NCBI GenBank assembly: GCA_001567085.1
Contig: LMZS01000015.1
Location: forward strand, 1 to 64,000
Direction of reading: 5' to 3'
Origin: Chloroflexi bacterium OLB15
GTDB taxonomy: Bacteria; Chloroflexota; Anaerolineae; Aggregatilineales; Phototrophicaceae
Length of the DNA: 64,000 nucleotides
A program made the translations under genes and the position numbers. Under the pieces are notes generated by a model. It was not told the origin of the DNA, ran no database searches, and worked only from the letters and a program-made list of their open reading frames with translations. This document shows positions 10,377-11,465 of the stretch, one piece after another. The stretch's first letter is position 1; every line of letters begins with the position of its first letter.

Positions 10377-10410
10377 ATTACTTCGTATAATGTACCATAT
10401 ACGAAGTTAG
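10377..10410. other. lox/dif-like recombination site upstream of the tyrosine recombinase
   Basis: Perfect 10-bp inverted arms ACTTCGTATA (10380-10389) and TATACGAAGT (10398-10407) flank an 8-bp spacer ATGTACCA (10390-10397). Taken as 13-8-13, the arms are ATTACTTCGTATA and TATACGAAGTTAG. Each differs from the phage P1 loxP arm at one position, and the spacer shares its first five bases (ATGTA) with loxP, giving 29 of 34 matches. It also reads as an 11-6-11 dif-like core (arms ending in ATAA, spacer TGTACC). Its right edge is 20 bases before the ATG of the recombinase gene. I found no second full copy in the window. Confidence 0.75.
10386..10391 (+). promoter_or_regulatory. Candidate -10 box inside the recombination site
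   Basis: TATAAT at 10386-10391 spans the left arm and spacer of the lox/dif-like site, 40 bases before the ATG at 10431. No convincing -35 is present at 17 bases; TTCTTG at 10365-10370 is a weak candidate. If used, recombinase binding to its site would cover its own promoter. Confidence 0.35.
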
Positions 10411-10430
10411 AGTTCTGAGATAACCCAAAC

Positions 10431-11465
10431 ATGCTCCAGAGATTTGATCAGCAAACGGAAACAGCCTTTCTACAGTTATTGGCGGAAAAATATCAGTTAC
10501 TAGGCCAACTCGATCTGCCGTCTAAACAGCGCTCTATCACGTCGCGCAATTTTGTCAGCGCGATCAATGCGCTTGCCGAATATATGCGCGAACACAATTT
10601 GCCGATTCCTAACCGCACAGTGCTTGAACGCTTTCGTGATGACATGGCTCATGGCCGTTGGCCAAACGGTGAACAATTATCTGTTAGTACCATCAACGCG
10701 CGATTGGCAGCGGCGCGAAAATGGCTGCGCTCTGTAGCAGATGATGTGGTTGACCTGCAAATGAAAATTGCGCTGCGCGATTGGGCGAATGTTAAGGACG
10801 TGAAACGAACACTGGTGCAAGATGAAGTTGAAAGTGAGGATGTGGTTGATTATGGGCGGCGCTTTGAATTGGAGGCCGTACAGCAGTTCATGCAAAGTTT
10901 CCCGACCCATCTCAAAGGCCGCCGTGATCGCGCAGTATGTGCCCTCGCCCTAGGGGCTGGCTTGCGCGTTAGCGAAATTGTCGCGCTCACCAAAACAGAC
11001 CTGTACAGCCGCAATCGTCACGGTCAGCCGGCGATCCTGATCCGTCGCGGTAAACACAACCGCAAACGCGCTGTCGTTATGGCCGACTGGAATTCATGGG
11101 TGTATAAGGCAGTCGAATCATACTTGCGCGGTGCCCTGCCCCAGCACGAGCGAGCGCCAATTATCCGCCGTGTGAGGCGATTTGAGGGAGATTTTATCTC
11201 AGTCGAGCGTTCCATTACTGAGCGCGGACTGCAAATGATGTTTGAGGGGAAAAAGCCGTATCGCATTGAATATCGGGGCGAACTGGTGATCCCGGCATTC
11301 CACGATTTTCGCCGTACCTACGCCTTTCTATGCCGCCAATTTGGCATGGAAATGGACGCGATAAGGGAGCAATTAGGCCACTCCAGCGTGGTTACCACTG
11401 AACGCTATATCGGTCACGATGTTGATTGGTCGCATCGCGTGCCCGGTTGGAAAGTGGATATTTAG
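10431..11465 (+). CDS. Tyrosine recombinase (solo Xer/Cre-like integrase)
   Basis: A 344-residue recombinase that would cut and rejoin DNA through a 3'-phosphotyrosine. The catalytic set is complete: R179 in GAGLRVSEI, a probable K208 in RRGKHNRKR, H291 and R294 in HDFRRT, H317 in LGHSS and the nucleophile Y326 in TTERYIGHD. An N-terminal SAM-like core-binding domain occupies about 35-120. Overall sequence is Xer/phage-integrase-like rather than close to Cre, although the length equals Cre (343). No phage or transposon genes surround it and there are no visible attachment-site repeats. The palindromic site just upstream is its likely target. The layout recalls single-recombinase Xer systems such as XerS or XerH, whose dif site lies beside the gene. 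Confidence 0.9.
   Translation: MLQRFDQQTETAFLQLLAEKYQLLGQLDLPSKQRSITSRNFVSAINALAEYMREHNLPIPNRTVLERFRDDMAHGRWPNGEQLSVSTINARLAAARKWLRSVADDVVDLQMKIALRDWANVKDVKRTLVQDEVESEDVVDYGRRFELEAVQQFMQSFPTHLKGRRDRAVCALALGAGLRVSEIVALTKTDLYSRNRHGQPAILIRRGKHNRKRAVVMADWNSWVYKAVESYLRGALPQHERAPIIRRVRRFEGDFISVERSITERGLQMMFEGKKPYRIEYRGELVIPAFHDFRRTYAFLCRQFGMEMDAIREQLGHSSVVTTERYIGHDVDWSHRVPGWKVDI

Follow-up and report, generated by a model that had tools for sequence, protein, structure and literature searches.

Genetic organization of the locus

The window, a 64,000-nucleotide stretch analysed at full length, belongs to the 3.8-Mb Anaerolineae genome G000 and contains a 34-bp site of 13-8-13 layout with near-palindromic arms (ATTACTTCGTATA-ATGTACCA-TATACGAAGTTAG, 10377-10410). 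The site ends 20 bases before the ATG of a tyrosine recombinase gene, and the genes around this pair are ordinary chromosomal genes. The features are as follows.

10377..10389, + strand: left arm of the lox-like site, ATTACTTCGTATA, 12/13 to loxP; its core is kept in the G010 orthologue
10390..10397, + strand: asymmetric 8-bp spacer, ATGTACCA, 5/8 to loxP
10391-10396, within the spacer: 6-bp centre in dif numbering, TGTACC
10398..10410, + strand: right arm of the lox-like site, TATACGAAGTTAG, 12/13 to loxP; in G010, a G/C exchange here compensates for that in the left arm
10380..10407, no strand assigned: 28-bp core of dif geometry (11-6-11), ACTTCGTATAA-TGTACC-ATATACGAAGT, with two XerC-type arms; it includes a TATAAT, a putative -10 element of a promoter
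10431..11465, + strand: tyrosine recombinase of 344 aa with a predicted Cre-like two-domain architecture; catalytic R179, K208, H291, R294, H317 and Y326
11223..11225, + strand: codon of R265, the equivalent of Cre Arg259 in an alignment to Cre

The original prediction had described a 34-base site with arms each one mismatch from loxP and five of eight spacer bases shared, followed 20 bases downstream by a 344-residue recombinase with a full R-K-H-R-H-Y set, and the sequence agrees with it in coordinates and residues alike. The loxP letters used here (spacer ATGTATGC) agree with P1-type sites from viral contigs. The 20 core arm bases had one match without mismatches in the window versus 0.00 expected from 100 shuffles, and the genome-wide count that had been proposed as a check returned a single copy at up to three mismatches in the 190-contig assembly of G000. 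With one site copy in the whole genome, attL/attR copies flanking an integrated element were not found. Inverted repeats of 10-12 bp are not rare per se, with 10/12 reached in about 7% of 610-bp stretches; what lies beyond chance is the lox core, its position and the conservation of the site across species, not the inverted repeat by itself.

A remote relative of Cre

All six catalytic residues are invariant across seven orthologues. Single-sequence searches with the window protein reach only XerA, and XerA of P. abyssi is the best single solved-structure match by sequence. With a profile built from 60 related recombinases, the match to Cre spans its whole length (residues 24-332, E 1e-20); XerD and XerA score above Cre with this profile, but essentially in the catalytic domain only, and a profile restricted to the seven orthologues of the window's own clade (clade B) matched Cre in the catalytic domain only. 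The fold model reached a pLDDT of 50 when derived from 7 sequences and of 91 (pTM 0.76) when derived from 60, and its best solved-structure matches were IntI4, Cre and Tre (a Cre derivative), with Tre giving the highest TM-score among them (0.58). Scores against curated Xer models were far lower than required: 47.7 bits versus a cut-off of 267 for XerS, 61.6 versus 335 for XerC and 40.1 versus 330 for XerD, with XerA also far under its cut-off, and a profile match to XerH was partial and confined to the catalytic domain. Judged by family profile and predicted fold, the window protein is a remote, full-length relative of Cre with a Cre-like two-domain build, which corrects the earlier statement that it is not Cre-like in sequence.

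Conservation of the site with the gene

The closest orthologue, in Anaerolineae isolate CH4 (G010; 91% amino acid identity), has the site CTAGTTCGTATA-atgtgcga-TATACGAACTAG at the same distance from the gene as in G000. Between these two genomes, synonymous sites are saturated and intergenic DNA aligns poorly; despite this divergence, TTCGTATAATGT.C.ATATACGAA is preserved, and a C to G change in the left arm of G010 is matched by a compensatory G to C change in its right arm. The recombinase has a dN/dS of about 0.03 (approximate, dS being saturated), a value indicative of very strong purifying selection. In a different genus, the G468 orthologue has GATTGCCATCGTATA-atgtataa-TATACGCTGGCAATC at -53, and one in G053 has a weak site at about -50. 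The idea that the palindrome would recur upstream of homologous genes thus held for G010, G468 and, weakly, G053, but not for four of the eight full-length orthologues, which have no adjacent site (G020, G057, G019 and G039). Two of these, G019 and G039, have core-perfect sites elsewhere in the genome, apparently intergenic, in 2-3 copies per genome that differ in spacer, unlike a single dif. An ATGT at the start of the spacer is common to the sites of the window, G010, G468 and G039. Because the G010 and G468 orthologues keep the palindrome, the former with a matched change in both arms, we consider the pairing of gene and palindrome to be real on comparative grounds.

The surroundings of the gene differ among genomes. 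Its flanks in G000 and G010 are housekeeping genes conserved between both species, and the G468 copy (L283, G468:C16:1272127) has TIR and SIR2-like genes as neighbours, along with a gene for a PHP-domain protein, surroundings that resemble a mobile or defence island. In G019, three dispersed lox-like sites (L347 3500, L349 6177 and L351 10083) have a common right arm, TATACGACAGGAAT, and different spacers, and one of them is about 10 kb away from a region that carries a primase, a repressor and another recombinase, which suggests that these sites are element ends.

Distribution of sites and recombinases in the class

Searching 396 genomes of the class for TTCGTATA-N8-TATACGAA returned 20 places. 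Eight were rejected as a coding artefact, given that they encode the FVYPSLYEGFG motif of GT4 glycosyltransferases; the underlying string TTYGTATAYCCNTCNCTNTAYGAAGG (L076, L079, L084, L088-L090, L312 and L313) is a recurrent false positive in searches for lox sites. Of the 12 places that remained, seven lie next to a tyrosine recombinase gene and an eighth within 0.8 kb of one; G000 and G010 are recombinase-associated places already known before the search. A broader survey, in which 28-mers of 11-6-11 geometry near gene starts were scored against a threshold, detected a site at the start of 20 out of 65 recombinase genes versus 3 out of 1204 other genes of the class (Fisher p about 1e-24, a value that ignores the relatedness of the genes). 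At the four outer arm positions, where species differ, the bases were in dyad in 68/80 cases versus 35.6 +/- 4.6 with shuffled arms, and in 42/48 among 12 distinct site types; such covariation of the arms has the look of a symmetric, protein-bound site.

The exact pattern recovered essentially only P1-type loxP from viral contigs (75/78) and a collection of phages gave one weak match, while no lox-like site was found upstream of plasmid homologues of the recombinase in Deinococcus and Paludibaculum. Related modules in other genomes look mobile. One further palindrome (L082, G029:C138:15075) has perfect 12-bp arms, TACCTTCGTATA-gcagtaaa-TATACGAAGGTA, and lies about 90 bp upstream of a gene for a 369-aa recombinase with His, not Arg, at the position of Cre Arg259. 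We found no earlier description of a co-evolving site family in Anaerolineae in the literature searched.

A specificity residue that tracks the site

In the HMMER alignment, Cre LSTR259ALE262G corresponds to SITER265GLQ268M of the window protein. Of these Cre residues, Arg259 bonds the C-G pair at position 10 of the half-site and Glu262 makes contact with position 9 (PMC6486577; see also PMC4957104). Position 10 is C-G in 40/40 arms of the 20 sites, and arginine occupies position 265 in 19/20 site-bearing enzymes versus 8/37 site-less enzymes, which mostly have Trp, Asp or Glu there. Conservation in at least 19/20 site-bearing enzymes is seen at 29 columns, and R265 is the only one of them not also common in site-less enzymes, the next-lowest still being present in 22/37. 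At two loci (L033 and L109), the site has A-T for G-C at position 9 and the enzyme has Asn for Gln/Glu at 268. Phylogeny confounds some of the association, but this pattern of residues and sites is what a Cre-like reading predicts, and R265 probably reads the C-G pair in the manner of Arg259.

Proposed mechanism and biological role

The sequences support a paired site and gene, co-varying dyad arms, an intact catalytic set and a specificity residue that tracks the site, and it is very likely that the enzyme acts on the window site. We infer cleavage, strand exchange and a biological role as follows. A recombinase dimer would bind the palindrome with one monomer per arm and would read the TCGTATA core as Cre does on loxP; two copies of the site, for example on sister chromosomes joined as a dimer, would then be brought into a tetramer, and strands would be exchanged across the asymmetric 6-8 bp centre using Y326. 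Overall, we interpret the locus as a resident single-enzyme site-specific recombination module of the Cre/Xer type, an explanation to which we assign a probability of roughly 0.6; dimer resolution, at lower odds, is the likeliest of its candidate roles. A resident single-recombinase module with a lox- or dif-like site in cis had been predicted, and this has been borne out insofar as the site is kept in the nearest orthologue, is unique in the genome and is laid out as in XerS/difSL and XerH/difH.

Chromosome dimer resolution in a lineage devoid of the usual recombinase of its genus is the best single candidate for the role, one we advance tentatively. G000 has two tyrosine-recombinase-like genes, of which that in the window is the only catalytically intact one detected. 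The other (L002, G000:C133, ORF 1009-2004; also L066-L073) is a paralogue conserved genus-wide, and all nine examined members of its clade (9/9) have lost the catalytic Arg (R1), both His positions (His, His/Trp) and the nucleophilic Tyr, so that it appears to be a retained, catalytically dead recombinase. All other genomes of the genus (13/13) have a further intact recombinase that is lacking from G000 (91% complete) and from its sister species G010 (96% complete), and no other functional XerC/XerD was found in these two assemblies, although another Xer could be missing from the G000 data because this is a MAG of 190 contigs. FtsK is present in G000, and a layout of one enzyme with an adjacent site has been described as potentially characteristic of single Xer systems (PMC5357621). 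The missing genus enzyme, the presence of FtsK and this layout favour dimer resolution; against it stand the modules of relatives, which are multi-copy or island-borne, and the one-contig genome G041, where a site-bearing relative is located at 0.37 Mb, away from the skew maximum near 3.65 Mb.

By GC skew, replication in G041 (contig C1) starts near 0.85 Mb and ends near 3.65 Mb. The recombinase nearest the terminus is not the site-bearing one but L093 (3.546 Mb), which would be the Xer candidate of that genome. Around the window site, local GC skew had no clear switch and tracked gene direction, and it was noisy on the 1.74-Mb contig of G468. Placing the terminus through six relatives of the genus yielded no usable synteny: a clear orthologue of the downstream neighbour was present in 2/6, on a contig other than that of the upstream neighbour.

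A different origin for the module has to be weighed, namely that it is what remains of, or the core of, a mobile element (integrative or plasmid-like) whose recombinase, domesticated or still mobile, was captured by the chromosome, the palindrome being an attachment or multimer-resolution site. Relatives with sites of their own occur in multiple copies per genome (G022, G037 and G079), the gene is patchily distributed (about 9/98 genomes of the family) and distant homologues reside on plasmids of Deinococcus and Acidobacteriota; the G468 copy in its defence-type island and the three G019 sites with different spacers, one near a primase-bearing region with another recombinase, are in line with this as well. 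Nonetheless, the conserved housekeeping flanks in G000 and G010, the lack of a second genomic site to delimit an element and the very strong purifying selection on the gene argue against it, and we regard this origin as a real possibility at somewhat unfavourable odds. A role other than dimer resolution or mobile-element recombination is unlikely.

The palindrome could also be an operator only, at which the recombinase or another dimeric protein represses a promoter with its TATAAT -10 box in the left arm and spacer. This box lies about 40 bp before the ATG, and wherever a clade-B gene has an adjacent site, that site is immediately upstream. Across the family, however, the site may precede, cover or follow the likely -10 and in some cases overlaps the start codon, leaving no fixed relation to the promoter, its geometry and core are of the lox/dif type, and the G019 and G039 sites are away from the gene, making a purely regulatory function improbable; a recombination module could still repress its own gene as a side effect. 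That an unremarkable inverted repeat, for instance a terminator, looks like loxP by chance could be argued from how common repeats of such length are and from the chance lox-like strings encoded by glycosyltransferase genes, but we give this almost no credence in view of the shuffling result (0 expected), the compensatory change in a site kept inside a diverged intergenic region, the enrichment at recombinase genes (20/65 vs 3/1204) and the specificity residue that tracks the site.

Relation to known recombination systems

Cre-type systems have been found through lox-like sites beside the gene, including Dre/rox, VCre/loxV, Vika/vox, Nigri/nox and Panto/pox (PMC4957104). The window module resembles Cre/loxP of phage P1 in having a 34-bp site (13-bp arms on either side of an 8-bp spacer) beside the gene, in arms identical to loxP at 24/26 bases, in the size of the enzyme (344 aa versus 343 aa for Cre), its whole-length profile match and Cre-like predicted fold, and in the retained equivalent of Arg259. 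Unlike in Cre, identity to which is only about 18%, H317 takes the place of Trp315, and the module belongs to an Anaerolineae host in which it is chromosomal among housekeeping genes rather than on a plasmid or phage.

With XerS/difSL and XerH/difH it has in common one recombinase of about 350 aa, a cis site beside the gene, no XerC/XerD pair found and the presence of FtsK; in contrast to them, its site is a near-perfect palindrome with arms of the lox/dif type, not those of difSL or difH, and its enzyme is outside both sequence families (under the XerS cut-off, matching XerH in the catalytic domain only). A single recombinase and a nearly symmetric 28-bp site are also features of archaeal XerA/dif, whereas XerA is about 290 aa and is matched in its catalytic domain only, and the site of the window enzyme lies beside its gene.

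The 28-bp core has the 11-6-11 geometry of XerCD/dif, and 13 consecutive bases, TTCGTATAATGTA, are identical to the XerC arm and centre of the Nitrosomonas europaea dif (ATTTCGTATAATGTATATTATGTTAAAT; PMC2731167). The predicted overlap of lox-like and dif-like sequences is thereby seen letter for letter in the left half of the window site. The right arm, in contrast, is a second XerC-type arm and not the TTATGTTAAAT XerD arm, and one enzyme takes the place of two, with the XerC and XerD curated models far under cut-off. In effect, the window site appears as two facing XerC-type arms, as expected for one enzyme serving both, a description that loxP fits too, and the common TTCGTATAATGTA core points to lox sites as symmetrised dif sites. 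A fuller scenario, in which a Cre-type recombinase replaced Xer dimer resolution on a palindromic dif of two XerC-type arms, such that Cre/lox would be chromosomal housekeeping and loxP a symmetrised dif, is doubtful at present.

Implications

The window module is lox-like in both site and enzyme, is chromosomal, and represents a variant of Cre/lox and single-Xer systems that joins lox to dif through the TTCGTATAATGTA core. If dimer resolution is indeed its role, it would be, to our knowledge, the first Cre-type system shown to perform it. The module is one member of a family of Cre-like recombinases that occurs naturally on chromosomes and has about a dozen arm types; across this family, the site and the residues predicted to read it change together. 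The Cre specificity code may thus be tested by comparison instead of laboratory evolution, and the family offers new pairs of recombinase and site.
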